Assembly: GCA_004124875.1 (NCBI GenBank)
Contig: SCKJ01000004.1
Span: forward strand, 62,001 to 126,000
DNA from: Fidelibacterota bacterium
GTDB taxonomy: Bacteria > Fidelibacterota > Marinisomatia > SCGC-AAA003-L08 > TS1B11
Reading direction: 5' to 3'
Length of the DNA: 64,000 bases
A program made the position numbers and the translations under genes. The notes below the pieces were generated by a model. The model saw nothing but the letters and a program-made list of their open reading frames with translations, ran no database searches and was not told where the DNA came from. Each line of letters opens with the position of its first letter. Positions within the stretch are counted from its first letter, which is position 1. Positions 2,792 through 46,051 of the stretch are shown here, in pieces.

Positions 2792-2965
2792 TATTGCCCG
2801 TGAGTGGCAGACTAACTCAGATCCTACAATCTGATTAAATGGGGCGCCATATTCGGTTAAGGCAGCGCAGGCCTTTCCTCCGGGATTAAGGAAACCTGTT
2901 TTAATTGAGAGGGGCCCACCGTTCCTTAAAGAACGGATCTGAGTTACGAGCGCTCACGGGCATTA
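2792..2965. repeat. Imperfect inverted-repeat element in the intergenic region, about 175 bp
   Basis: The 362-base gap between the symporter and the protease contains two complementary arms. The left arm (2792-2824) includes GCCCGTGAG and TAACTCAGATCC. The right arm (2935-2965) carries GGATCTGAGTTA and CTCACGGGC, their reverse complements, with a two-base length difference between the blocks. The interior (about 110 bases) holds a smaller TTTCCT/AGGAAA hairpin. No open frame of note is inside. It could be a MITE-like element, a structured RNA or a large transcription terminator; no second copy was noticed in this window. Confidence 0.6.
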
Positions 2966-3006
2966 TTTTTTAAGTAAAATAGACCTTCTATGCGCCAGTT
3001 GGCGGA

Positions 3007-3029
3007 CTGACGCCTGACAACTGACGACT
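3007..3029. repeat. Heptamer tandem repeat (CTGACNN), left copy
   Basis: Three consecutive 7-base units (CTGACGC, CTGACAA, CTGACGA) followed by CT. The 16-mer CTGACAACTGACGACT at 3014-3029 recurs exactly at 10051-10066 in the same orientation. It lies just beyond the 3' end of the secreted protease gene. Confidence 0.8.
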
Positions 3030-3073
3030 ACTTCAGCAAAACCATGCTTCGAGAGCCTCAGCATGACCAGTGG

Positions 3074-4864
3074 CTATTTAAGTAAAATCATCTTGATCGA
3101 CTTGACGTATTTCGGCGTTACCAGCCGGGCAATGTACAGGCCGCTCGGCACAGGCCTGCCGGTTGCATCCCGGCCGTGCCAGAGGGCGGCATGGTATCCG
3201 GGGGCCATATGGCCCTCAGCCAACCGCACCACTTCACGCCCCAGCAGATTGTAAATCACCAGCCGCACCTCCGCCGGCTCCGGCAGGTCGTACCTAATAG
3301 TGGCGGTGGGGTTAAACGGGTTGGGGTAGGCGTTGTGCAGGGCGTAGACGGATGGGAGGGCGGGGTCGGTCTCCTCAACTTCCTCTGCTTCGGCGTCAGC
3401 AAATTGCTGCACAGAGGCCGATGGCCCCGAAGCGCCGATGGTGATGCCACCCACCGGGATGTGGAAGGTAATAGCCTTGCTGATCGTTACCGCTTCATTA
3501 TAATAGCCTGTGACGACACTGATGGTTTCCCCGGCCGCCGCCGCCGATACGGCCTCCCCGATGGTGTCATAGGGTCGAAAGACAGTGCCGTCCTCTGTGG
3601 CAATGTCATGCCCCGCGTCGGCGTAGGTGATATTGGCGCCGGGAAAGTTTTGGATAGCAGCTTCAAATTCATTATTTTCAAAGCCGGTGCCATAATTCTG
3701 AAAATGATCGAAAGTCTGACATGCGCCGTCTGTGAGTACGCCGATGGTTAAATTGGTACCGTTTACTATAATTGGTCCGCCGGATACACCATCTTTAACA
3801 TCTACTTGCAGAATCCAGTATACATCGTTGGCACTGTCATAATTTTCATCATCAGCAACAGCTGATGCCGTAGCGGTTTGCTGCGTTTTGTTAAGTGATC
3901 CAGCAGCATCTCCATAACCGGTAATGCGTAATGTGCTAGGGTCACTATCAATGGACATGCGGTAGAACGCTAACTGGGCCTCAACCGGAAGCAAGCCGGT
4001 ATTTGAATTGGAATAACAGTCAAAGACCGCCCAATCCTTGCCAAAGTGATTGAAGCCAACATCATCATCTGATACAATGCTGGATGCGATCACGCTATAT
4101 TGGCTGTCCGGATGTGAGAAATTGGGGGTGCCATCAGCGTCTGAGGCGCGCACATTAAATTCCAGAACAACGAGGTCGCTGGTCGGCTGTGCACAGTGCC
4201 CGGCAGTCAGATGAGCCCCATTGGAGGCGATCCATCCGGTGCACCAGGCGAGTGAGTCGCCCGAGACGACCTGGACTGTACGCCCGATTGCAGCGTCGGT
4301 CGATGGTACACGATCATCAGTACCACATATTTCTTGAATGGCCGTCGATTTGCTCATTCTAGCATCGGTTTGAACCTGGGGTATCCCTGCCATTACTTCC
4401 TTTGTTTCGAAAAATATTCCTCTGTCACCTGGGGCCACATGCAGCTCTATTTCAATCGCTTCCCCATTGAAAAAGGCTGAAGAATTGCGCCATTGGGAGA
4501 TGCTTGTTGCATCCAGACGTTGAGTAGCGCCATCCTCCAGTGAAGTCATTAAGATGTAGCTGCTTGTCGGGTCGGCTGAAATATCGACGCTGTCCAAATT
4601 GGAAACGGGTGGAGTATACAGATCGGCAAGGTGATAGGAGTTGAATACCAACCGGAGCCAAGACGCACCGGGTATCCGAATGACATCCTTGAAGGCCAAT
4701 CTAGCCTGAGCGCCAGGCTCCGTTGCGCCATCGTGGTTGCCGGAGTTCAAGAAATACGCCTCCCTATGGAATGGCGTTTTGGGTGATTGGGCCATCAACA
4801 GTATAGGGAGCAAGGTCACTAGGCCAAATTTTGCGTAATTCATAACGAAATATGTGTATTTCAT
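3074..4864 (-). CDS. Secreted trypsin-like serine protease with type IX-like C-terminal sorting tail
   Basis: A 596-residue exported protein. An N-terminal hydrophobic stretch (GLVTLLPILLMAQ) acts as signal peptide. The S1 protease core carries the triad in order: His223 in LTAGHC, Asp277 in KDWAVFDC, and Ser361 in DGVSGGPI. After the protease domain, residues about 405-460 (ATEDGTVFRPYDTIGEA and following) resemble a right-handed beta-helix stretch. The last 85 residues are a T9SS/FlgD-like Ig tail with YPNPFNPTATIRYDLP, VRLVIYNLLGREV, GLYIARL and a basic end (KMILLK). In known systems such tails direct passage through the type IX secretion system; no T9SS machinery is in the window. It is last in the AT-richer island, 85 bases after the lipoprotein gene. 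Substrate unknown. Confidence 0.9.
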   Translation of the reverse strand: MKYTYFVMNYAKFGLVTLLPILLMAQSPKTPFHREAYFLNSGNHDGATEPGAQARLAFKDVIRIPGASWLRLVFNSYHLADLYTPPVSNLDSVDISADPTSSYILMTSLEDGATQRLDATSISQWRNSSAFFNGEAIEIELHVAPGDRGIFFETKEVMAGIPQVQTDARMSKSTAIQEICGTDDRVPSTDAAIGRTVQVVSGDSLAWCTGWIASNGAHLTAGHCAQPTSDLVVLEFNVRASDADGTPNFSHPDSQYSVIASSIVSDDDVGFNHFGKDWAVFDCYSNSNTGLLPVEAQLAFYRMSIDSDPSTLRITGYGDAAGSLNKTQQTATASAVADDENYDSANDVYWILQVDVKDGVSGGPIIVNGTNLTIGVLTDGACQTFDHFQNYGTGFENNEFEAAIQNFPGANITYADAGHDIATEDGTVFRPYDTIGEAVSAAAAGETISVVTGYYNEAVTISKAITFHIPVGGITIGASGPSASVQQFADAEAEEVEETDPALPSVYALHNAYPNPFNPTATIRYDLPEPAEVRLVIYNLLGREVVRLAEGHMAPGYHAALWHGRDATGRPVPSGLYIARLVTPKYVKSIKMILLK

Positions 4865-4949
4865 TTTACCGCCATTTAATTCTACGATTATGTGAATTGC
4901 GACCCATTTGTAAATTTCACCAACATTGACGCAAACCTTATCAATTGAG

Positions 4950-5792
4950 CTAATCGGAACTGAAGGTTATCAAGTAGGCGCCGTCCGAACTGCTAAATTT
5001 TAGTTGGCTACCGGTAATTGTGTATAACTTTTCACCTTTCATTACATCACTATAATGCTGCTCAAGTGGCCCTCCTATTGGTCCACAGCCTGATGATGAA
5101 CTACCAAAGCCAAAGAAGATGATCTTTCCCATTTCGTTTATTTCATACACGCCAAAATATGTGTTACAAAGCAGCTGGCCTCCAGTAATTAATTCCCGGC
5201 GAAACTCGATAGTGAAAATGGGACTATAATTGCTGGTCTTCACATAGGTCGTATCACCCTGTTGGATAACCATCAGTTGCGTATCGCTGGTTGGAATGAC
5301 CACCATTTCAGGGCTTTGGAGCAGGTCCATCTTCCAAACATGGTCCAGCAATGCCTCCTCTATAAGCCCGTTATGGAAATAGATAATATTCCCATTGTCG
5401 TCGGAGAGACGCAGAGAACTGCCAGTCACCACGTAGCTGGTGACAGTGTTAAGGGCATCCGGGAACAGGCAAGTAAATGAGGGACCGCTGCACGAATATC
5501 CTGTTGGCTCCGAGAGGCTGATGTCGAGGGTATTGCGCCCTGTAATCTCGTAGCTGCCCTTGTGATCGCGATCTCCGCCTGCAAAACCCGACACCTGCAT
5601 ATCGCTTCCGAACCAGATGTTGCCGTAGCCCCCGCCCGTAGCTGTAACGAATGTCGCTTCCGGTGTCACCAATGAATCGGTGATCCACACAACATCCAGC
5701 AGCGCCTCATCGAGCCCCCATTCCTCATCCGCGCAGCCGGTCCCGGCTAGAGACAACAGGATGAGCGGTATTATGGCGGTAAATTTTTTCAT
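4950..5792 (-). CDS. Lipoprotein with two META (HslJ-like) domains
   Basis: Predicted lipoprotein of about 280 residues. The start MKKFTAIIPLILL gives a classic signal peptide ending in the lipobox LAGTGC; it is preceded by AAAGGAAC, whereas the longer frame (to 5849) has no signal peptide. The protein is an internal duplication: each half begins EALLDxVW and ends with a YxxTGSxLxxSxxxGxxxxF strand pair typical of META/HslJ domains, and the second half also has the LLCNTYFGVYE-like core. Function unknown; META domains occur in envelope stress and inhibitor-resistance proteins, but nothing here fixes a role. Its ribosome-binding site begins at the stop codon of the NHL gene, ten bases upstream, so it is probably translated from the same mRNA. 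Confidence 0.75.
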   Translation of the reverse strand: MKKFTAIIPLILLSLAGTGCADEEWGLDEALLDVVWITDSLVTPEATFVTATGGGYGNIWFGSDMQVSGFAGGDRDHKGSYEITGRNTLDISLSEPTGYSCSGPSFTCLFPDALNTVTSYVVTGSSLRLSDDNGNIIYFHNGLIEEALLDHVWKMDLLQSPEMVVIPTSDTQLMVIQQGDTTYVKTSNYSPIFTIEFRRELITGGQLLCNTYFGVYEINEMGKIIFFGFGSSSSGCGPIGGPLEQHYSDVMKGEKLYTITGSQLKFSSSDGAYLITFSSD

Positions 5793-5802
5793 GGTTGTTC
5801 CT

Positions 5803-6684
5803 TTACTGCAGGGTGACCAGCACCAGCACCAGGCCCCGGCCCGATTCAAGGGCGCTCATGGCTTTGCCGATCACGGCCCCTTGCGCCTGGGCGTGGTCGG
5901 AAACTCGCATCACGTGCCCCGGCGTGTCGGATGTGGAGTTGTCACCGTTGGCAGGATTTTTCCGCACGGCAATGCCGGATAGTCCGCTCAGGTCGTTATA
6001 GGTGGCCCCTGTGGAAGGGTTGTAGAGTGAAGAGATCGACAGCAGGTGCTGACCGCTTACGGTGAGCTTGATTACTTGCTCCAATGAGTTGTCGATGACC
6101 CACAGGTGGTCATCGCTTGGGTCGGTGTTACCCCGGTCATCGACATCCAGCGCCTTGGGACTTGATAACACAGTTTCACCAAGCGATGTAAAAGAGGAGG
6201 ATGTTATTTCTTCATTGGCAGCGTCGTAAAAGAGCTGGACCACGCGACCGTTATAGGTGTCGGCTACGTATAGGTTCCCCAAGCCATCGGTAACTACTGC
6301 ACCAGGATGGGCAAATTGCCCATTGCCGGACCCATACCCCCCAAAGCCCTTCGCCCACGTTTTGTAGTTCCCATAAACAATGCGACACCACGCAGGATCT
6401 ACAATAAAGGCAAGCAGACTCTGGCTGCCAATATATACAACTGACCCATCATAAGGTGTATTGAATAAGTTTTTATCGGGATCTCCGCTATGAATATAAT
6501 CCAGATTCAAGATGTACTGGGCGGCGTCAAAATAGAAAGGTTGCAAGAATGACGCATTTTGACCGGCGACCGGCTTAACTGCGCACATTACTAAAAAAAA
6601 CACAGCAACTGAACGGGCAGAACGGAACCATCGATGAACCCACGGACTGGCTAACCGCATGTCGGCCTTCAATCTGCCATTCAT
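5803..6684 (-). CDS. Exported NHL-repeat protein with a foreign C-terminal tail (probable chimera)
   Basis: The start at 6684 (MNGRLKADMRLAS) has GAGG at good spacing and leads into a signal peptide ending near KPVAGQ; the frame continues upstream to a TTG at 6738. Residues about 90-250 contain NHL beta-propeller repeats (GNGQFAHPGAVVTDGLGNLYVADT, NGRVVQLF, LSGIAVRKNP), too few for a full six-blade propeller. The last about 40 residues (DTPGHVMRVSDHAQAQGAVI and on to LVLVLVTLQ) do not continue the propeller. They resemble the C-terminal end of tail-fibre/adhesin-like proteins of FCB bacteria, from recall of the family. Base composition jumps from AT-rich to GC-rich at about 5935-5945, exactly at this junction. 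I infer a fusion by deletion or recombination. Confidence 0.75.
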   Translation of the reverse strand: MNGRLKADMRLASPWVHRWFRSARSVAVFFLVMCAVKPVAGQNASFLQPFYFDAAQYILNLDYIHSGDPDKNLFNTPYDGSVVYIGSQSLLAFIVDPAWCRIVYGNYKTWAKGFGGYGSGNGQFAHPGAVVTDGLGNLYVADTYNGRVVQLFYDAANEEITSSSFTSLGETVLSSPKALDVDDRGNTDPSDDHLWVIDNSLEQVIKLTVSGQHLLSISSLYNPSTGATYNDLSGLSGIAVRKNPANGDNSTSDTPGHVMRVSDHAQAQGAVIGKAMSALESGRGLVLVLVTLQ

Positions 6685-6798
6685 CTTGCTGCCTCGCGCG
6701 AGGTGTGTATCTCCATCCATTTCTTTATCGTTTCCCAAGATATCGTCCCATTTATATTTCTACGATTTGATCAGTGGAAATAATCCTGTTTGATTGGC

Positions 6799-7866
6799 TT
6801 AGGGTCGGTTCGGTATTTCTTCCAGGATCACTTTCCCATCCCGCTCTACCACAATTATCTTATTATTGCCAATCCATTTGCTGGGCAACCCTTCGAACTC
6901 CTTGATCACACGCCTGGTTTCTACATCAAAAAGAAAATGTTTTATGGATTCTCCTTGGACTATCTGGACCAGGTAATTGACTTTAGATGCCCCTCTTACG
7001 GGCGGTGGACTATCATACGTAGTGGTTCTGATGAGCAAAATTGATTTTCTCCCATTTATCCAATCCACAATATTGATAATCGTACCCCGCGCAACAATTT
7101 GGGGGAACTGCATTTGACGCTCATTTAAAAAAACCTCATTCGTTGCAGTGTCATAAATTTGGCGTTTATGACTTATCATAGGATCGTACCGGAGAAAATA
7201 ATATTGCCCATCAGGTGAAAAGTCTATTCCGGCATAATCAGTAGAATCTATCACGCCACTCTCACTGCTATATCGTAGGACATCCAAGCTTTGCGTAAAG
7301 TAGAGGTTGTTATCGAACTCTGCCCACTTTAGACGTTGGGCATATCTGGAAATCCTCCTTCTCTCGCCAGTCTCGAGATCGTAAATCCAAAGACCTGTAG
7401 GGGATTTATACGTATAGTCGGCATCATTGAGGTCATATGTTACGTAGGCGATCTTATTTCCATCGGGGCTCCAGGCAAATTTTAGGCCATCCTCAAGAGT
7501 ATGCAGTAACTCGCCATCGGGAGAGATCACCCGGATATAGGCTTTCCCCCAAACGTCAGGTCTCCCTTGGTGGCGTGCTTCAGCTGTATGGAATTGACCG
7601 GATTTTTTTTCGGCAAAGGCCAGCAATCCGCCATTGGGTGCAATTTTTAAGTATTGATGCCTTTTGTATCTCAGCGTAAAGATCAGGGATTCTTCACCCG
7701 TGTTGATGTCCAGTTTATAGAGTTTGCCTTTGCGGAAGGATACAAGCAGGGGAGTGGCGTCGCCCTGCAAGGCACCGGCAGGTATGCTTGATGAAATTTT
7801 CCGGGGCGCGGGTTGAGAATAAAGCATAAGACCCATTAGAGAGGCAAGTAGTACCATATTTTTCAT
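6799..7866 (-). CDS. Exported PD40/TolB-like beta-propeller protein
   Basis: A 355-residue protein starting at MKNMVLLASLMGLM (GAGG ribosome-binding site about ten bases upstream; an 11-codon extension to 7899 lacks one). A short signal peptide ends near LYSQPA. The body is a series of WD40-like PD40 blades: LYKLDINTGEESLIF, YLKIAPNGGLLAFA, YIRVISPDGELLHTL, FAWSPDGNKIAYV, LWIYDLETGERRRIS, GIDFSPDGQYYFLR. Such propellers in the periplasm bind proteins or glycans; the SPDG motifs are the typical blade corners. There is no catalytic domain, so it is not a prolyl oligopeptidase. It lies between the M74 endopeptidase (36 bases upstream) and the NHL gene. Specific role unknown. Confidence 0.8.
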   Translation of the reverse strand: MKNMVLLASLMGLMLYSQPAPRKISSSIPAGALQGDATPLLVSFRKGKLYKLDINTGEESLIFTLRYKRHQYLKIAPNGGLLAFAEKKSGQFHTAEARHQGRPDVWGKAYIRVISPDGELLHTLEDGLKFAWSPDGNKIAYVTYDLNDADYTYKSPTGLWIYDLETGERRRISRYAQRLKWAEFDNNLYFTQSLDVLRYSSESGVIDSTDYAGIDFSPDGQYYFLRYDPMISHKRQIYDTATNEVFLNERQMQFPQIVARGTIINIVDWINGRKSILLIRTTTYDSPPPVRGASKVNYLVQIVQGESIKHFLFDVETRRVIKEFEGLPSKWIGNNKIIVVERDGKVILEEIPNRP

Positions 7867-7902
7867 TTTATCATTCCTCACCCTTGTACTGGAGAACAAT
7901 TA

Positions 7903-8655
7903 TTAATTGCCGGTCCCATCCGGATCTATTATTCTCACGTGAAAATGGTTGTAATGGTCAACACGGTAAATAATCTGCGGAAGAGGTTCAGTTCTTGCCG
8001 AAATGCCTACATTCGGATGCACGTAAACCAAGGCTATGGGTATCTGTGTTTCGATTAGGAGGTTTATCATCTTCACCGTCCCTGTTACATCATACTCGTC
8101 ATAATTGGTTCCAATATCTAATCTGTCCTCAGCACCATCCTTCCTCAAATATCGAATATCTACATCCAGACCATTTTGATGAGAATCATGAGGCTGCCAA
8201 TCTCCTCCCGCCTTTAAGCTTAAATCCCCAAAACCTATTCTGGCAAGCCCCCCATCCTTCGATGATCTTCCGCCGCCTTCCAGCATGTTAATTAATGTCA
8301 GGGTACCCCAATCGTCAAAATACTCCACCACAGTGTCAGGGCCATAGTAATGGTAGTATCCCTCGCCTGCATCGGGCATATTCAGGCCACCTTCAAGCCA
8401 GCCGCTTGTTGGGGTGCCATGGGCAATACTGGGGTCAGCATCTACCGAGTCAACGTCAAAGCCGTATTCGGCATTCGCAGGGTTTGTCTCAACTGCATCA
8501 CTAATATTGTCACCGTCACTATCCCAGTATGGGTTGAGGTCAGCTGGAATTACTGGCTGGAGTTCACATTCCGATCCTAACGTCAGAGACAATAAGGTAA
8601 TAACAGCGGCCCATTCCCATATCTTTATCTTAACTCGGGGGATCTGACGCCTCAT
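7903..8655 (-). CDS. Exported M74 (MepA-like) murein endopeptidase with a calcium-binding-like motif
   Basis: A 250-residue protein. Its start overlaps the stop of the preceding gene as ATGA (8655-8652), which decides the start against a longer frame. An N-terminal hydrophobic stretch (EWAAVITLLSLTLGS) is a signal peptide without a proper lipobox. Residues about 40-70 hold a thrombospondin type-3-like acidic repeat (YWDSDGDNISDAVETN). The catalytic region shows the LAS-family zinc pattern HDSHQNGLDVDIRYL and a C-terminal HYNHFHVRI, which match the penicillin-insensitive D-alanyl-D-alanine endopeptidase MepA. Predicted role: cleavage of cross-links in peptidoglycan in the periplasm or outside the cell. 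Most MepA relatives stand alone; here it is coupled to an NTF2-like gene in a secreted-protein island. Confidence 0.82.
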   Translation of the reverse strand: MRRQIPRVKIKIWEWAAVITLLSLTLGSECELQPVIPADLNPYWDSDGDNISDAVETNPANAEYGFDVDSVDADPSIAHGTPTSGWLEGGLNMPDAGEGYYHYYGPDTVVEYFDDWGTLTLINMLEGGGRSSKDGGLARIGFGDLSLKAGGDWQPHDSHQNGLDVDIRYLRKDGAEDRLDIGTNYDEYDVTGTVKMINLLIETQIPIALVYVHPNVGISARTEPLPQIIYRVDHYNHFHVRIIDPDGTGN

Positions 8656-9218
8656 GGCCCAACCTCTTTGGGGAGTAGGTTGGTCAAATTTAGCACCCTT
8701 TTCATCCGCCATTCTCCACCAATCTTCTGAAAGCGGATCGTTACCGTCTGTTTCACGCCCAATGGCCAGTCGCTGCCCGGGTCCGGCTCTCTGGCTGCAA
8801 AATAGGCCCAACCTTTGGCTTCGGCAATCCCGTCGGCCAGAATGCGCACGGTGTCGATCTCCAGCGTGAAGTCCCAAGTACCGGTGAGGTTCGCGCCGGG
8901 CGGGGTCAGTTCCTGGAAACGGGCGCTTTTCCGGCGAACCTCCGCGCGGTTGAAGGCCGTTCTCAGCATGGCCTCGTACTGCCCCCTGGTCACCGTGGTC
9001 GAATCATTGATAAAAACCTCGGTCGCCAAGCCGTCGGTCATGAGCAATAAGTCCTGCTGCTTGATGCCTTGGGTCATGCGGTGCAGAAGGATACGTATAG
9101 CCTCCTCGTCGGTAAGATACCTGGGAGGCGGGATTGACCTGCTGGCGGTTTGGGCCTGTAAGGATGCCGCTGCCAACATGATCCCCAACAGATAGCCACC
9201 CAGTCGAAAGGCCCCCAT
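8652..9218 (-). CDS. Exported NTF2-like/SnoaL-fold protein, unknown function
   Basis: A 188-residue protein starting at MGAFRLGGYLLGIMLAAA with an AGGAAG ribosome-binding site; a longer frame to 9284 overlaps the upstream gene and adds no signal. The signal peptide ends near SLQAQ. The mature part (EEAIRILLHRMTQGIKQQDL, then GQYEAMLRTAF, a TWDFTLEIDTVRI strand, and VTIRFQKIGGEWRMKRVLNL) has the helix-then-sheet pattern of the NTF2-like superfamily (DUF4440/SnoaL). Such domains bind small hydrophobic ligands or serve as scaffolds; no catalytic residue can be assigned. It begins one base after the ancestral stop of the tail-fibre-like gene (TGA-C-ATG) and ends overlapping the M74 gene (ATGA), so the three are probably translated together. 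Confidence 0.65.
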   Translation of the reverse strand: MGAFRLGGYLLGIMLAAASLQAQTASRSIPPPRYLTDEEAIRILLHRMTQGIKQQDLLLMTDGLATEVFINDSTTVTRGQYEAMLRTAFNRAEVRRKSARFQELTPPGANLTGTWDFTLEIDTVRILADGIAEAKGWAYFAAREPDPGSDWPLGVKQTVTIRFQKIGGEWRMKRVLNLTNLLPKEVGP

Positions 9219-9219
9219 G

Positions 9220-9954
9220 TCACTCTTCCTGTTCAAGAGTTGCCACGCGCTCCTTGAGCGCATTATTTTCCCGCTGCATCTCAATCATGTAGAGCGTCAG
9301 CTCCTCGATCTTTTTCAGCAGCAGCGCCTGAGAGGCTCCCAGATCGAGGCCGTTGGCAGCCACCTCCTCCGAAGAAGGCACCTCCGGCAGGCGCCCGTTG
9401 GAAGCAATATAGGCGGCTACCTAAGCGAGTGGCATGAGGTTGTAATCATCGGCGAAGACATAGTCGGGCCAGCCGGTGGAGGTGACCTTGACTTCCTTGG
9501 CGGTGATGGTTCCGTTCACAGCCAACTTCGATGAGGGGTTGATTGTCCCTATGCCTACGTTGCCAGTTTCAGTATCGACCAGAAAAAGTGTAGCGCCAGA
9601 ACTGTTTCTAATTCCAAATTTTGCAGTGGATTGATCGGGATCCATAATTAACGACCCGTCATCACCTGAGTCGTAATAGGAGATACCGAAGGCCCACGTA
9701 CCACCCTGTGTTATAGTACGTGTTATTCTAAAGACTGCCATTACAGAAGTTTCTACATCAAGTTGATGTGTTGGAGTTGTCGTTCCAATGCCCACTTTGT
9801 CAGTGCTGGTCGTCAACCTGACAGCAGTACCATCATCGGTCCAGCCGTTTTGGCCATAGGCCGGTGCGGCCCCAACCGTTAGCCATAGCGCCGCCAGAAT
9901 GCCTGCGGCGCTTCGAAAAATGATGTTGTCCTCATGAGTCCCCCTCCGATCCAT
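9220..9954 (-). pseudogene. Tail-fibre-like structural protein interrupted by an in-frame TAG
   Basis: The first 177 codons (stop at 9423-9421) encode a signal peptide (ILAALWLTVGAAPAYGQ), repeated VGIGTTTPTHQLDV and VGIGTINPSSKLAVNG motifs, and the start of the tail (GWPDYVFADDYNLMPLA). These repeats are typical of tail-fibre/S74-like trimeric proteins of FCB bacteria. After the TAG the same frame stays open for 66 codons to a TGA at 9222-9220 and encodes the expected continuation (VAAYIASNGRLPEVPSSEEV, LLLKKIEELTLYMIEMQREN). The family usually has Glu (GAG) where TAG stands. The 5' end is also odd: a strong GGAGGGGG-ACTC-ATG start is out of frame with the signal peptide, and one extra T in a T5 run would repair it. 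I infer a decaying gene or sequence errors; amber readthrough is less likely. Confidence 0.75.
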
Positions 9955-10050
9955 GGTGGTGAAAAAAAGACGAGCCCTTAGTAAAGATGTCTATTAATAA
10001 GGTCGCCCATTCCTGGCCATAAGTCAAGGCAAAGTTGGGGTGGAGCATGT

Positions 10051-10080
10051 CTGACAACTGACGACTGACGACTGACGACT
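10051..10080. repeat. Heptamer tandem repeat (CTGACNA), right copy
   Basis: Four consecutive 7-base units (CTGACAA then three CTGACGA) plus CT. The first 16 bases are identical to 3014-3029. It lies in the 158-base gap between hflX and the tail-fibre-like gene, at the outer edge of the AT-richer island. Confidence 0.85.
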
Positions 10081-10112
10081 CTCTTCTGCCCTGCCATCTG
10101 CCGCTGTCACTG

Positions 10113-39678: not shown

Positions 39679-41768
39679 GCCGCTTCGAGCTCGAGTCGGC
39701 GGTCACCTTTGGATGGGGCTTGCTGATTATACTCCTGCTCAGCGGGTTGCTCGTGTTTTACCGGCTGCAGTTGCATGCTCTCCCGCGCATATTGAGGTTG
39801 TGGATCTTTGGCGCCCGGGCACTGTTTTTGCTGCTGGTCGCAGCGCTGCTCATCGATCCGCACCTGACGTGGAAGAGACTGGTCGAGGCGCCACCCAAGA
39901 TCGGCATTTTTCTGGATAACTCACTGTCGATGGCCAACCATTCGGCTTCATCGGTCAGCACCATTTATGCCCAGGTGTCAGCGCTCTACAACTGGGCCAT
40001 ACGCAACAATTACCAGCCCGTGCTGCTTACTTTTGGTGAATCGCTGGCCACTCTGGAATCGGACAAATTCGATTACCGGCCGGATGAGCGTCTCACCGAT
40101 TTTGATCTGATACAGGATTGGTGGCCCACGGCGAACCTCGCTGCCGGTTTTATCTTTTCCGATGGCGTGGCAACAACCGGACCGGGTCCGGCGCTGATCA
40201 GCGGTCCACCGCAGGTGCCGATCTATACTATCGGCGTGGGAGATACGGTAGCCAGCGTCGATTTGAACATTGAGGATTTGCACTACCCGCTGTCGCTGCT
40301 GGCGCAGGAGCAGAGTGAGATGCGCATTACGGTCCGTGGGAGAAATGCCATGGGTCAGCGTCGTCGTCTGTTTTTGTTCCACGAGGGCGAGCTGATCTTT
40401 TCAAAACTGATAAGGTTTGGCTCGCAGGATCACGTGGAGTCGGTAACGGCCCCTGTCGTAGGCCGGCTCGATGCGACGCGATTCCAGATAGAACTGGAAG
40501 TGTTGCCGGAGGAGTCGAACATCGCTAACAACCGCCGCGAAATTCAAATTGATGTGCTGCCGGGACGGCGTCAGGTAACAGTGGTCACGGGAGGCCTTTC
40601 GCCGAACACGCAGATGTGGAACAGGGTCATCGATGATTTGTCCCAGGTCAGGATCAGCCGCCTGGTTTACCTGCGCGGCAGCTGGCGGGGCGGGGAAGAG
40701 GCGTTCTGGCGGGAAAAGCAGGACCTGATTATCCTGGACAATTACCCGACCAACCGGCACTCAGCGGAGCATCTTGACAGAATGTTGGGGAAGATCAAAC
40801 GTGACCGGTCAGCGGTTATAGTTTCAGAGGGGCCGGACAGCGGGCATCGCGGATTCGTGCGATTGTTGCGCGAGCTGGGCGTCACGGTAACAGAGCACAA
40901 GAGCCCGGCGGGCGATCCCGCCAGGCTGCGGCTCTACCCGCGCTCGGGCTTGCCGGCACTGGACAGATCGGGCCTGATTGAACTGATCTCCGGCAATTTT
41001 CCCCCTGCCCGTTTGCGCTATGTCATGCCCCCTTCTTCCAACCGGCGGTTGTCACCTTTGGTGCAAATGGGCAAGGGTGGCTGGGTGTTCGCTTATGGTC
41101 CGCAGAATCGGGGCAAACGGGGCGTCTTGCTGTTGCCCGGTCTCGCGGGCATGCACCTTAAGATGGGGCGCACCGCCGGCTCGGAATTCCTGCGCGAGGC
41201 CATGTCGGCCATGATCGAGTGGACCCTGGAGCCGGAGGGCTTTACCCCCTTTGTGGTGCAGACCGACCGCAAGGATTACCACCTGGGCGAGAAAGTTCGC
41301 TTTAGAGCGTTGCAGCGGGATCGGGCCGGGGAGTCCATGTTGCAGCCGGTTCTGACCCTCGAGGCCGAGGGCCCGCAGAACGCCGCCCTGATTACATTGA
41401 ACTACAACTTTGAGTCCGGAGAATACGAAGGGGAGTACTGGCCCAGCGAACCTGGCGTTCACCGGTACCGGGTTGAAGGGGACGGCGGCGGCCGCGACTG
41501 GCAGAGATTTGAAATGCAGGCGGGCCGGGTGGAGCTGGAGTCTCTCTCGCAAAACCGTTACGGCCTGCAGCGGCTGGCGCAGCTTAACGGTGGCAGCTAT
41601 ATCACCCTGACTGAGGCCGCCCAACTCTGGGAGAAAATGGAATATGCGCCCCGCACCGTCGCCCGGGAATCAAACTTCAACTTGTGGCAGCTGAGCTACC
41701 TCGGGCCGGTCATGCTGTTGCTGCTGGCGGTGGAATGGGTGCTGCGCCGTCGCATGGGTCTGATTTAA
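39675..41768 (+). CDS. Large VWA-domain membrane protein, unknown function
   Basis: A 697-residue protein with two N-terminal membrane helices (WGLLIILLLSGLLVFYRL, FGARALFLLLVAALLIDPHL), a VWA-like domain with metal-site DNSLSM near residue 82 and later FIFSDGVATTG, a glutamine-amidotransferase-like stretch (VIVSEGPDSGHRGFVRLL) and a C-terminal helix (LSYLGPVMLLLLAVEWVLRRR). Its layout matches the BatA-like protein at 11374-13485 although the sequences differ. Overlaps tsaD by four bases. It ends 165 bases before the terminator at 41934. Confidence 0.78.
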   Translation: MSRFELESAVTFGWGLLIILLLSGLLVFYRLQLHALPRILRLWIFGARALFLLLVAALLIDPHLTWKRLVEAPPKIGIFLDNSLSMANHSASSVSTIYAQVSALYNWAIRNNYQPVLLTFGESLATLESDKFDYRPDERLTDFDLIQDWWPTANLAAGFIFSDGVATTGPGPALISGPPQVPIYTIGVGDTVASVDLNIEDLHYPLSLLAQEQSEMRITVRGRNAMGQRRRLFLFHEGELIFSKLIRFGSQDHVESVTAPVVGRLDATRFQIELEVLPEESNIANNRREIQIDVLPGRRQVTVVTGGLSPNTQMWNRVIDDLSQVRISRLVYLRGSWRGGEEAFWREKQDLIILDNYPTNRHSAEHLDRMLGKIKRDRSAVIVSEGPDSGHRGFVRLLRELGVTVTEHKSPAGDPARLRLYPRSGLPALDRSGLIELISGNFPPARLRYVMPPSSNRRLSPLVQMGKGGWVFAYGPQNRGKRGVLLLPGLAGMHLKMGRTAGSEFLREAMSAMIEWTLEPEGFTPFVVQTDRKDYHLGEKVRFRALQRDRAGESMLQPVLTLEAEGPQNAALITLNYNFESGEYEGEYWPSEPGVHRYRVEGDGGGRDWQRFEMQAGRVELESLSQNRYGLQRLAQLNGGSYITLTEAAQLWEKMEYAPRTVARESNFNLWQLSYLGPVMLLLLAVEWVLRRRMGLI

Positions 41769-41933
41769 GCCAGGGTTGACTCGCGGGATACATCCGGCTA
41801 AATTCCGGCGCAGATATTTTACGTGCCTTGTCTTTTTTACCATTAAGGGGACCTGTCTGGAACTTCGCTAAGGCTGACTGATCTTTTCATCGAAATGAAA
41901 TGACCTTCAGTTTGCCTGACACGAGGTTCGTGG

Positions 41934-41962
41934 AACCGAATGTGTTAGCATTCGGTTTTTTT
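41934..41962 (+). terminator. Strong rho-independent terminator before the exopolysaccharide cluster
   Basis: A 9-bp stem AACCGAATG/CATTCGGTT (loop TGTTAG) runs straight into seven T. A second hairpin, GGTTC-GTG-GAACC at 41924-41936, overlaps its left arm, so the two are mutually exclusive. It ends the tsaD/VWA transcript, or may act as an attenuator for the downstream cluster. Confidence 0.88.
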
Positions 41963-42028
41963 ATGCTCTGAAGTTGTGTGGCGGTTAAAAGTGAAGTGTA
42001 ATATTAAAATGAAAGCGAGTTAGGCGTG

Positions 42029-43231
42029 ATGCGCCGAATCGGGCCAGTCGCCTTGCTATCAATCTTGCTTCTCAACTCTGTTGTTTGGGCACAGGGGAGG
42101 AGTGGCGAGAGGAGTATAGCAGCCAAGTCAGGTCGTCCAATTCCGGTTATCCCGCCTTTTAAGGCCCAAGTCGGCAATACGGCACTGGACATGCCTGTCT
42201 CAATTGAAGACTACATGGTGGGACCGGGAGATATTTTTCTTGTTTCCATTGTTGGGTTAGACCCTTATTTGATCCAGGCAACTGTTTCACCCTCCCGCCG
42301 TCTGGTGGTTCCGCAAATTGGATCTTTCGCAGTACAGGGGCTGAATGCCGCTGAAGTCAGGAACCAGGTTATAGCAAAAATAAGCCAGGTTTATCCGAAC
42401 TACGAAGCCGACTGCATTCTCTACGGAATTCGTGAGATAAAAGTGAGTTTGAGCGGCGCGGTAAGCGCGCCCGGCATGTATAAGGTGACTCCACTGACGC
42501 GCCTGGTTACCCTTCTTCGCCAGGGGGGCGGCTGGAAAAGTCAAGGCGCATTGCATCGGGTGGAAATACGCAACGGAAACGAGGTATCCGTGGTAGACAT
42601 GAACCGGTATCTCGTTGAAGGAGACGCGGAGCAGAATCCACGACTGCGCCAGGGGGATGATGTGTTAGTGCCCTACGGCGACATGGCTTCGGAAATAGTG
42701 ACAGTTCGCGGTGTGGAGGTTAAACCCGCCTATCATGCAATCCGGCCAGCTGAATTGCTGAGTGATTTCCTGAAGCGCTGGTACACCGCCGGCAGCGGCG
42801 CAGATTTATCGCAAGTTGAGATTAACAGGGCGGGGGAGGCCGCCGAACCGCTGTCAATTACAGTGAAGCTTGAGCATTATGGCGAAATTGAGCTCGAGGG
42901 GGGTGACATTATCTACATCACTCCCTTTGAGAAAGTCGCCATTGTAGGTGAAGTGCGCAATCCCGGGAGGTACGCTTTTCAACCGGGATTTTCGGCCGCC
43001 GACTATCTTACGCGTGCCGGCGGCGTAGTCAGCGATGGATCCCGTCGCAGCGTTACGGTCACCCGCAAAAGTGGTCAGCGGGAACGGGGCGTCGATACGA
43101 TGGTTGAGGCGGGAGATGTGATAACCGTTCCCCGTTCAGCGAGAACATTGCTCGTGGGCCAGACCGGCATGGTCCAGGTTTTACTTGCCATATTTAATAT
43201 ATATCTCACCTTTTTGGCTGCCACATCATGA
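42029..43231 (+). CDS. Polysaccharide export protein (Wza-like, Poly_export and SLBB domains)
   Basis: About 400 residues. Signal peptide LLSILLLNSVVWAQ without a lipobox Cys, unusual for Wza proteins, which are commonly lipoproteins. The Poly_export domain is clear (YMVGPGDIFLVSIVGLDPYL, RLVVPQIGSFAVQGLNAAEV), followed by SLBB-like domains (VSLSGAVSAPGMYKVTPLTR, KVAIVGEVRNPGRYAFQPG). A C-terminal hydrophobic segment (VLLAIFNIYLTFLAAT) may be a membrane helix. It forms or feeds the outer-membrane export channel. GTG at 42026 is also a possible start. First gene of the exopolysaccharide operon, coupled to the Wzz gene. Confidence 0.88.
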   Translation: MRRIGPVALLSILLLNSVVWAQGRSGERSIAAKSGRPIPVIPPFKAQVGNTALDMPVSIEDYMVGPGDIFLVSIVGLDPYLIQATVSPSRRLVVPQIGSFAVQGLNAAEVRNQVIAKISQVYPNYEADCILYGIREIKVSLSGAVSAPGMYKVTPLTRLVTLLRQGGGWKSQGALHRVEIRNGNEVSVVDMNRYLVEGDAEQNPRLRQGDDVLVPYGDMASEIVTVRGVEVKPAYHAIRPAELLSDFLKRWYTAGSGADLSQVEINRAGEAAEPLSITVKLEHYGEIELEGGDIIYITPFEKVAIVGEVRNPGRYAFQPGFSAADYLTRAGGVVSDGSRRSVTVTRKSGQRERGVDTMVEAGDVITVPRSARTLLVGQTGMVQVLLAIFNIYLTFLAATS

Positions 43232-44385
43232 ACGATACGACTGAAAATCCCGGCGCTGAGGGGAGAGAATTGACCGGACTGATAATTATCATGAGCATTT
43301 GGCGGAACAGACGATTGATCGCCCGAAATGTGGTGGGCATGGCGATCCTTTCGGTGATTACGGCATTACTTCTGCCAGTCTGGTTTGTCTCTCAATTTAC
43401 CATTCTGCCCGCCTCTCTCGGCAACCAGGATATTCTATCGGGAATAATGGGAATCGGGAATCCCCTTGCCGGGCTGGGCTTTGGGGTGAGTAGTGAAGAG
43501 CTCAACGGTTACATCAGCATCCTCAAAAGCAGGGAGGTAAGGGACCATATCATCACGGAATTCGATCTCCTTGAGGATTATGATGTGAAGACGATTGAGG
43601 ATGCGCTGTTCATTCTTGATGAGCGGATAGATATAAATATCAGCGATGAGGGCGCTTTACGGATTGCTCTGATGGATCGTGATCCGCAGGCGGCCAAGGC
43701 GCTGGCGGAAGGATTTTTGAATGCGCTTGGCCAGACCATGACTGATTTGGGTCATGCCATGGGGCAACACCAGAAACGGTTTATCGCCAGCCGGATTGCC
43801 GCAGTTGAAACGGAATTGGTACAGATTGAAGAGGAACTTAAGGAATTTACCCGCGAATACGGCACCTTCGATTTACCCGCGCAGATTCCCGTCGTGATGG
43901 AGAAACTGGTGGAGATGGAGATTCAATTAATTCAGGCGGAAATCGAATATAGCGTCGCCAGTTCCAACGCATATCAGGGGGATCCAGCGGTGGCCATTTT
44001 ATTGAGTCAGCGCGATGAAATCCGAAAACAGCTCGATGGGATAATTCACGGCAAAAGCAGGAACAATATCATTCCCAACCTTGAACTTCTCCCCGATATA
44101 TCGGTTCAGTATGCACGATTTCAGCGCGGAGTATTGATCCTGGCCACTCTTCTTGAGTATCTATATCCCCAACTTGAGCAAGCGCGACTCAAGGAGGCGA
44201 AAGATGAACCGACTTTGCAGATTCTCGATTATCCAAAATTACCCCAGAAAAAAGCGAAACCTCATCGTTCAGTGATTGTGATATCGGCGACAATGTTCAG
44301 CCTGCTGACAACTTGTGTCTGGGTCGTGTTCAGGCCCCGCTTGGAGGCCACTATCGAAGCCCTTAAGGCCATGGGCGCCGGATGA
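43228..44385 (+). CDS. Polysaccharide chain-length determinant (Wzz family)
   Basis: A 385-residue co-polymerase. Two membrane helices frame a long periplasmic coiled coil: VVGMAILSVITALLLPVWFV near residue 35 and VIVISATMFSLLTTCVWVVF near 355. The Wzz core (ISILKSREVRDHIITEFDLL) and a proline-rich turn before the second helix (LDYPKLPQKKAKPHRS) are present. No cytoplasmic tyrosine-kinase domain (Wzc type) follows. Overlaps the genes on both sides by four bases. Confidence 0.86.
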   Translation: MNDTTENPGAEGRELTGLIIIMSIWRNRRLIARNVVGMAILSVITALLLPVWFVSQFTILPASLGNQDILSGIMGIGNPLAGLGFGVSSEELNGYISILKSREVRDHIITEFDLLEDYDVKTIEDALFILDERIDINISDEGALRIALMDRDPQAAKALAEGFLNALGQTMTDLGHAMGQHQKRFIASRIAAVETELVQIEEELKEFTREYGTFDLPAQIPVVMEKLVEMEIQLIQAEIEYSVASSNAYQGDPAVAILLSQRDEIRKQLDGIIHGKSRNNIIPNLELLPDISVQYARFQRGVLILATLLEYLYPQLEQARLKEAKDEPTLQILDYPKLPQKKAKPHRSVIVISATMFSLLTTCVWVVFRPRLEATIEALKAMGAG

Positions 44386-45767
44386 ACTGGAGGCCGTCCA
44401 GCAACGTCATGACCGCGCTGTTAATTTCCGTTCAGCTGGGTGGGCTGGGGCTAGCCGTGGTACACCCGCTGGCGCCATACCTGCTGATCCTGGGGATGCT
44501 GGGTATTGGTTTTGCAATAGCGTATCATCACTTGATTATAACATTATTGGGCAACCTCTATGTCATTAAGGCCGTACTGATCAGCAGCGTCCCCGGCTTG
44601 GCATTCATCGACCCGATAATAATTCTCGCTGTCCTCTCCTACTCGTATATTATCTGGACAGTCGGCACGGAACGGGGCCGGCAAGCTGTTAACCGGCATG
44701 GGCATCTGTTACTGGCGGTAGTGGCCTGGATAGGCTTTGTACTGATGAGCACGGTCTATGCGCCAATGCTGGGCGAGGCCCTTGTAAAAGCGGGGCGATT
44801 CGCATTTATAGTGCCGGCCCTGTTTTTGGGGCCTTTGGTATTGATCCAATCCTCGAGGGACGCTCGCCTGCTGCTAGGCTTATTCATTGCGCTAGGTGTT
44901 ATTTCGGCCTTATTGCTTTACGCAAAAATGTGGGGCATTGCAACAGGGTCTGCCATCGAAGACCCTTCTCTCAGGTTAAGCATCCTGGGCACGAACCCGA
45001 TAGCCACTTCACGAATTTTGGTCGTGTCGGTGGCTATGATCGCCGCAGCAATTATTGGTCGGACGCTCTCTGCAATCAAGTGGATGCCGGTGATTATATT
45101 TCTGCTGGGGGCCGCTCTATTAACCGGCTCTCGCGGACCTTTATTGAGTCTGTTGCTTGCCGGGGTGGTCCTCGGGCTGCTATATGCCGGCCGTCCCAGA
45201 AGAATCTTGCTTGGCGGGATCCTGAGCGTCGTGATTTTGGTGGCCATTTTCCTGGTGCTGGCCCCCGAGGGGATGACTGGACGATACTTCGCATTGACGC
45301 AAGGCGAACTGGGAGTTAGCAAACAGGGTCTGAGAGTTTTCAGCACCGTTGTTTCCCGATTCCGGCTTTGGGAGATAGCTTTGGAGAGCTGGACCAGCAG
45401 TTCATTCAACCTGCTTTTCGGTACCGGTGTCGGCGGGTATGCCGCATTGATCACCTGGCGCGATTATCAATACCCGCATAATTTACTGTTGGAAGTGCTC
45501 GTCGAGTTTGGGTTGGTGGGCGCGGCCGTATTCAGCTGGCAAATCGCGTTGGTATTTCGCCGGTTGTTCAGCCGTTCAATTCAGCAGATATCGCCAGAAG
45601 CGTCCATGTGGCTGGCAGCAATATTCACCTTTTTTATATCCACGATGTTCTCGGGCGATTTGAATGATAACCGCCTGCTATGGTATTTTTTAGCGGCCTA
45701 CATAGCGACGCTATCCCTGAAAACGGGCGTGACGGCCCAAACGGCTCAAACTGATCGGAATTATTAG
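44382..45767 (+). CDS. O-antigen ligase/polymerase (Wzy/WaaL-like) membrane protein
   Basis: A 461-residue protein with about 11 hydrophobic segments. The Wzy_C signature is near residues 310-370: LRVFSTVVSRFRLWEIALES ... LLFGTGVGGYAAL ... YPHNLLLEVLVEFGLVGAAVF, with the conserved HN(L)LLE motif, and an upstream ALLTGSRGPLLSLLLAG motif. Family members polymerise or ligate lipid-linked glycan repeats; the direction here (polymerase) follows from Wza and Wzz next door. It is AT-richer than the genes after 46 kb. Confidence 0.85.
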   Translation: MNWRPSSNVMTALLISVQLGGLGLAVVHPLAPYLLILGMLGIGFAIAYHHLIITLLGNLYVIKAVLISSVPGLAFIDPIIILAVLSYSYIIWTVGTERGRQAVNRHGHLLLAVVAWIGFVLMSTVYAPMLGEALVKAGRFAFIVPALFLGPLVLIQSSRDARLLLGLFIALGVISALLLYAKMWGIATGSAIEDPSLRLSILGTNPIATSRILVVSVAMIAAAIIGRTLSAIKWMPVIIFLLGAALLTGSRGPLLSLLLAGVVLGLLYAGRPRRILLGGILSVVILVAIFLVLAPEGMTGRYFALTQGELGVSKQGLRVFSTVVSRFRLWEIALESWTSSSFNLLFGTGVGGYAALITWRDYQYPHNLLLEVLVEFGLVGAAVFSWQIALVFRRLFSRSIQQISPEASMWLAAIFTFFISTMFSGDLNDNRLLWYFLAAYIATLSLKTGVTAQTAQTDRNY

Positions 45768-46051
45768 ATGTCTCCGCATCCCCTTGAGGGGTGGCAACGG
45801 GTGAACCGGCAACCCGTGAGTCCGCCAGCATGATCGCCTCATCCGGCCATCCTTGGGTTGACTCGCCGGGGCAGGCGGCCGCGACCGCGCCAACGGGTCA
45901 TCCATGTTGTCGGGGAGCTCAGGTATGACGCAACGGTCATTGATGTGCACAGCTCGGAGTTACTGCTGCTGCTGATGAACTCGCTACGCTGGCCGCTTTC
46001 GGCAACCCCGTTCAAGCCGGCGATCCAGCCTCTCATTGAGAGGGCGCCGTA
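45768..46051 (+). other. Mini-ORF region between wzy-like and acyltransferase genes
   Basis: No convincing gene. Three short frames chain together: an ATG directly after the wzy-like stop (45768, 21 codons), an ATGA-linked frame at 45830 (32 codons) and an open frame from 45858 (TTG) to a TAG overlapping the next start (TAGTG at 46050-46054). The last one (VIHVVGELRYDATVIDVHSS) is protein-like and coupled to the acyltransferase. Two short hairpins (45780-45791 and 45797-45817) lie at the front. Best guess: a shortened, decayed gene or a small protein. Confidence 0.4.

Follow-up and report, generated by a model that had tools for sequence, protein, structure and literature searches.

A candidate secreted-protein cassette with shared ends between a symporter gene and hflX in a Fidelibacterota genome

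How did a run of seven genes for apparently exported proteins come to lie between a symporter gene and hflX in an uncultured Fidelibacterota bacterium? The run, hereafter the block, occupies positions ~2,970–10,110 (about 7 kb) of a 64,000-nucleotide stretch of contig SCKJ01000004.1 (assembly GCA_004124875.1), which was analyzed as a whole and is called the window, and all seven genes lie on its minus strand. An earlier reading of the letters, the original prediction, proposed a region inserted or swapped by recombination at repeats resembling attachment (att) sites. Here the genome holding the window (G000; 3.02 Mb, 17 contigs) is compared with those of its relatives, the closest of which by hflX are Candidatus Neomarinimicrobiota, and in particular with its one congener in the comparison (G001), whose host genes share 68–74% DNA identity with those of G000. 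On balance, the comparison makes it somewhat probable that the block belongs to a genus-level family of secreted-protein cassettes, in which constant ends enclose largely foreign cargo that is replaced or moved by host recombination.

The block and its insertion site

Wherever the junction persists among the other family genomes, G001 included, only a few hundred bases separate hflX from the symporter gene, and the block is absent. The spacer of these relatives holds a conserved 6S-like RNA, and the block is therefore an insertion, bounded by the terminator of that RNA on one side and by the stop codon of hflX on the other. It is specific to its lineage; the comparison of relatives was a check that the original prediction had suggested. 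Divergence of the G001 spacer keeps the insertion point, and with it any target-site duplication, from being fixed to a single base; the direct repeat TTTAAGTAAAAT near 2972 and 3077, considered as such a duplication, is instead read as one more sorting-domain end. Collinearity of both flanks with those of relatives, together with the recurrence at other loci of the end modules described below, makes an assembly misjoin unlikely.

The composition of the block departs from its surroundings in the way foreseen. Its GC content per kb is 0.44–0.56, against mostly 0.57–0.64 in the rest of the window, and GC at third codon positions (GC3) is 0.45–0.56 in the cargo bodies against 0.716 ± 0.068 in the background genes of the window. 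GC3 switches within single genes, such that native-like ends (0.71–0.79) adjoin AT-rich remainders (0.44–0.55). In the trypsin-fold gene, for example, the body stands at 0.52 and the sorting domain at 0.75, and in the leader gene, which opens the block, the 3′ part stands at 0.71 and the remainder at 0.44. The NHL-repeat gene, the chimera that had been suspected, fuses an AT-rich body (0.55) to a native tail (0.79), and its tail region is 89% identical in DNA to a counterpart in G001. This mosaic is most simply read as the joining of native ends to bodies of foreign origin, the AT-richness of which suggests import. Elsewhere in the window, a second AT-richer stretch (~41500–45800, 51–54% GC) carries genes that from their translations are polysaccharide-export-like, chain-length-like, and O-antigen-ligase-like; neither the 16-mer discussed below nor a tandem array was found in it. 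AT-richness in the window thus extends beyond the block to ordinary polysaccharide-type genes (41.5–45.5 kb).

The features of the locus are collected in Table 1. All seven block open reading frames (ORFs) begin with signal-peptide or lipobox-like segments, judged by eye on the translations and not by a dedicated predictor, which bears out the expectation of exported proteins almost throughout; the broken gene that had been noticed is the leader gene, interrupted by an in-frame stop codon. The sorting domain of the trypsin-fold protein exceeds the curated cutoff of the model for cargo of the type IX secretion system (T9SS). The M74-like protein has no relative at E ≤ 1e-8 among 245 phylum genomes. 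A phage or plasmid origin was considered and set aside: the M74-like protein has no phage match and one distant plasmid match, and PHROGs match the leader only (E ~1e-7).

Table 1. Features of the block and its margins, in window coordinates
Feature	Position	Strand	Evidence and remarks
Probable 6S (SsrS) RNA gene; conserved left neighbor, outside the cassette	2792..2966	+	RF00013, 37.2 bits, E 3.4e-6, full-length
Heptamer array, cassette 3′ end; in gene direction TCGTCAGTTGTCAGGCGTCAGT	3006..3029	-	
Second copy of last sorting-domain codons and stop, ATGGTTTTGCTGAAGTAG	3028..3045	-	Exact 3′ signature; like layout in L185, L213
REP-like palindrome between live stop codon and putative scar	3042..3067	.	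Read from sequence; counterparts in L185, L213
Trypsin-fold protein carrying a C-terminal sorting domain of T9SS type (~3074–3400)	3074..4864	-	PF00089 3.6e-8; PF13860 5.3e-7 (FlgD-like); TIGR04183 29.8 bits, cutoff 23
META-domain lipoprotein	4950..5792	-	PF03724 4.1e-14; relatives in G001, G007, G009
Chimeric NHL-repeat protein with native C-terminal tail (~5803–5960); true start uncertain	5803..6738	-	PF01436 5e-5
PD40 beta-propeller protein; start codon uncertain	6799..7899	-	PF07676 3.1e-5; single weak relative in 245 phylum genomes
M74 murein-endopeptidase-like lipoprotein	7903..8655	-	PF03411 3.1e-12
SnoaL-like exported protein	8652..9218	-	PF13577 E 0.001, under its cutoff
Leader gene, tail-fiber/adhesin-like exported protein	9220..9954	-	In-frame TAG at 9421–9423
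Constant region of the 5′ end; signature CTTGACTTATGGCCAGGAATGGGCGACCTT, promoter-like, at 9999–10028	9955..10050	-	Signature search and alignment
Heptamer array, cassette 5′ end	10051..10080	-	

End modules and cassette loci

The evidence that chiefly carries the cassette reading lies in the ends of the block, which recur at other loci around different cargo. In G000 the sister cassette L141 (C1:215.9–219.9 kb) runs from an array through a promoter-like element and a leader with in-frame stops to cargo whose last product is a T9SS-tagged M4 protease, followed by the stop codon and another array. Its DNA matches that of the window block in the leader (84% over 322 bp), in the 5′ region (73% over 173 bp), in the sorting domain (85% over 285 bp), and across the 3′ end (97% over 36 bp), and nothing matches between the ends. 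Across the cassettes, the 5′ module is usually composed of an array, a promoter-like 30-mer, and the leader gene, while the 3′ module comprises T9SS sorting-domain codons, often a palindrome like the repetitive extragenic palindromic (REP) elements, and an array. The 30-base 5′ signature occurs at two places in G000, at four in G001, and at none in nine other family genomes (reversed control, 0); the 3′ signature occurs at five places in G000 and four in G001.

Counted in this manner, the cassettes number two in G000, the window block and L141, and three or four in G001, with common ends and with cargo and loci that differ. Cargo that is related between the two species occupies different loci in them. 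The part of the window block that runs from the NHL tail through the META gene to the trypsin-fold gene has a G001 counterpart flanked by metH and a small gene, a position at which a 204-bp spacer is present in G000; reciprocally, G001 is empty at hflX, where G000 has the window block. In G000 the M4-protease cassette stands between htrA and a gene without a Pfam match, whereas in G001 its neighbors are rho/cas6 and thrS. Of two further G001 cassettes, one is flanked by genes for an outer-membrane beta-barrel protein and for an aminotransferase, the other by a trpF-like and an rpoD-like gene (this last pair named from translations); a fourth G001 5′ end is truncated at a contig end (L214). Leaders are frequently interrupted, and there are partial cassette copies.

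The ends resemble one another by genome. For sorting-domain ends, identity is 83.6% within G000, between its two cassettes, and 66–71% to G001 cassettes with related cargo, and leader 3′ ends follow the same pattern, at 83.4% within versus 78.4% between genomes. Trees of both end modules, albeit of five and four rows only, group by genome and not by cargo (support 100/100, bootstrap 0.98–1.0). The 3′ margin adds a further regularity: in the window block, in G001 cassettes B and C, and probably at C1:684961, the stop codon of the T9SS gene is followed by a REP-like palindrome, a duplicate of the last sorting-domain codons, and, if present, the array. This duplicated sorting-domain end (3028–3045 in the window) may be a scar, a remnant of the previous occupant left when its cargo was replaced.

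Within two G001 loci, internal repeats look like signs of recent duplication inside cassettes: cassette C (L213) holds ~1-kb tandem units roughly 81% alike at ~6480–8890, and L185 holds a 376-bp repeat at 98.9%. At the latter locus, a Cas6b-like gene (4902–5579) lies directly between rho and the cassette, and no other cas gene is among the ORFs listed there.

Repeats, recombination, and competing explanations

The 16-mer on which the original prediction was built, CTGACAACTGACGACT, is present as described at 3014–3029 and 10051–10066 in the same orientation (+), each copy within a tandem array detected by Tandem Repeats Finder. Allowing three mismatches, the window contains five matches versus 0.21 expected, a count that none of the shuffles reached. 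Genome-wide, it occurs exactly three times, twice at the block and once at C12:102548; allowing one mismatch raises the count to 11, against 0 for the reversed control. The 16-mer turns out to be two units of a dispersed, degenerate ACTGAYN (TAACTGA-like) heptamer family, whose arrays number ~25 loci in G000, almost all intergenic, and fewer in G001 (reversed-pattern control: 0 in G000, 5 in G001). Other seven-base arrays in G000 use the units ATTGATG and AGTGATG (L157 6938–7000, L142 8443–8544), the period being constant and the unit variable. L141, L151, and L156 carry the 3′ array sequence again, in each case after the stop codon that closes the sorting domain; arrays oriented like the 5′ array stand upstream of the 5′ signature in L141 and L185 and are degenerate in L213 and L215. 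A genome search for such repeats, suggested as a check for the 16-mer, finds arrays around a second block, L141, and also finds the repeat dispersed and not specific to block ends.

As part of this dispersed family, the 16-mer does not qualify as a separate att site, and its 16-bp identity is no guide to one. No array is present at the empty site of relatives, the window contains no tRNA or tmRNA gene as a possible target, and the block's proteins include no integrase or transposase. What stands of the original prediction is the insertion, the end repeats in the same orientation, and the recurrence of this arrangement at L141; the att-like site is not supported, and the longer shared end modules are more informative than the repeats. 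The tests made do not place the cassette among integrase-borne islands, transposons, or integron cassettes. Regarding the first, no integrase domain is encoded in the block, a genome-wide recombinase search not having been made; regarding the second, no terminal inverted repeats were found, just one chance-like internal inverted pair. Integron gene cassettes set variable cargo beside a constant promoter-like module, in which they resemble the window cassette; here, in contrast, multi-gene cargo follows a leader gene, and neither an integrase domain in the block nor an inverted-repeat or attC-like structure at its ends was found (intI was not searched for genome-wide).

Conceivably, a recombinase encoded elsewhere, such as a tyrosine recombinase or a REP-associated transposase, mobilizes the cassettes in trans by recognizing the palindrome or the arrays. 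In both G000 and G001, cassettes do carry REP-like palindromes and arrays at the 3′ end, and the G000 arrays share one orientation at both ends. Nevertheless, such mobilization appears very improbable, given that the block holds no gene of this kind (the genome-wide limit stated above applies) and that its ends have no common sequence beyond the heptamers. Under the cassette reading, by comparison, cargo would be replaced by homologous host recombination at the shared end modules, and cassette copies would settle in new intergenic sites via short homologies, namely, arrays and palindromes. A newly acquired exported protein would be placed under the existing promoter-like element, and the last cargo protein would be given a native sorting domain and, by prediction, be exported by the T9SS. 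In its fullest form, this amounts to integrase-free cargo capture, with foreign exported genes recombined between promoter-leader and T9SS tag, so that whatever is captured would immediately be both expressed and secreted, and with cassettes moving via arrays and REP-like palindromes, a proposal that we put forward only tentatively. If the cassette reading is right, the bacterium renews its secreted proteins by exchanging the middle of an operon while the promoter and the secretion tag stay in place, although the element encodes no dedicated recombinase.

Two further explanations dispense with moving cassettes. Other phylum lineages carry unrelated gene inserts near the convergent hflX–symporter junction, so the junction tolerates insertion; the block might then be one of many foreign genes gathered there by ordinary transfer, with the arrays, dispersed and nearly all intergenic, as neutral repeats of long spacers. 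We regard this as unlikely, as it leaves unexplained the end modules common to cassettes at unrelated loci and the clustering of those modules by genome. The clustering itself would follow if old paralogous operons at many loci had been lost differentially in each species while gene conversion homogenized their ends within genomes, an account that also accommodates the frequently broken leaders and the partial copies. This account is less likely still: at hflX the site is empty in G001 and in those other family members in which the junction persists, none of nine other family genomes contains the 5′ signature (0/9), and the AT-rich bodies suggest import. Since the site is empty in relatives and the signature absent from those nine genomes, gain within the genus is simpler than loss.

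Returning to the family of moving cassettes, several observations weigh against it. Movement is deduced from genome comparison, and no cassette was observed to move. The comparison draws on two genus genomes with ~70% identical DNA, at which distance insertion points are not resolvable to the base. A reciprocal empty site was seen for the window block, whereas the M4 cassette was compared at occupied loci only. Arrays are weak or absent at some G001 ends (L185 3′ end, L175, L214). In its favor, G000 arrays follow four of nine sampled sorting-domain genes but only 8 of the 301 remaining long ORFs (p = 1.5e-4), and array-bearing junctions are disrupted between G000 and G001 more often than others (17/22 vs. 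33/75, p = 0.0075; spacer length uncontrolled, hence supportive only), yet both samples were picked around arrays. Lastly, T9SS export is predicted from the sorting domain by itself.

Known systems and neighboring features

Intergenic direct repeats of the heptamer TAACTGA are known in Beggiatoaceae, Cyanobacteria, and Bacteroidetes (MacGregor 2015, PMC4679880). The arrays described here are of this kind in their seven-base period, ACTGA core, and short, dispersed, intergenic occurrence; they differ in their degenerate units, in the phylum that carries them, and in being tied to the ends of cassettes and sorting-domain genes, where the known repeats are tied to start codons. ACTGA-type repeats would thereby gain a concrete association, testable in other phyla with T9SS sorting domains. 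A small Escherichia coli genomic island without its own recombinase is excised independently of RecA between short direct repeats (PMC5426353). The window cassette is likewise bordered by short direct repeats and encodes no recombinase; excision is a demonstrated property of the island alone, and in the present case long coding end modules serve several cassettes. Recombination at conserved parts of exported-protein genes also yields new combinations in the 3′-end exchange of meningococcal tpsA/tpsC (PMC3848433) and in the domain exchange of Porphyromonas gingivalis surface proteins (PMC5266723). These cases concern one gene or locus, in contrast to the two ends of a multi-gene cassette that are common to unrelated loci. 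By analogy, the window cassette likely works most like the recombinase-less island (PMC5426353) combined with end exchange of exported genes (PMC3848433, PMC5266723). A search of the open literature gave no match for Marinimicrobia islands or integrase-independent cassettes, which, with open papers only, is weak evidence of novelty.

The left neighbor of the block (2792–2966) is probably a 6S RNA, to judge from its conserved place and its fold (z-score −7). It scores under the Rfam gathering score of 46.4, and its counterparts in relatives throughout the phylum stand in the same place at 33–40 bits (hflX–symporter spacers L049–L065, L069, L076–L085, and others). Rfam may lack a covariance model for the 6S RNA of this phylum, and a literature search returned no paper naming both Marinimicrobia and 6S RNA. 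In other Neomarinimicrobiota (L068, L086, L112), a 4.8-kb insert lies between hflX and the 6S motif, and an insert of the same size occurs in L072 and L075. From the translations of L068, L086, and L112, its genes are HMG-CoA-reductase-like, acyltransferase-like, FAD-oxidase-like, and short-chain-dehydrogenase-like.

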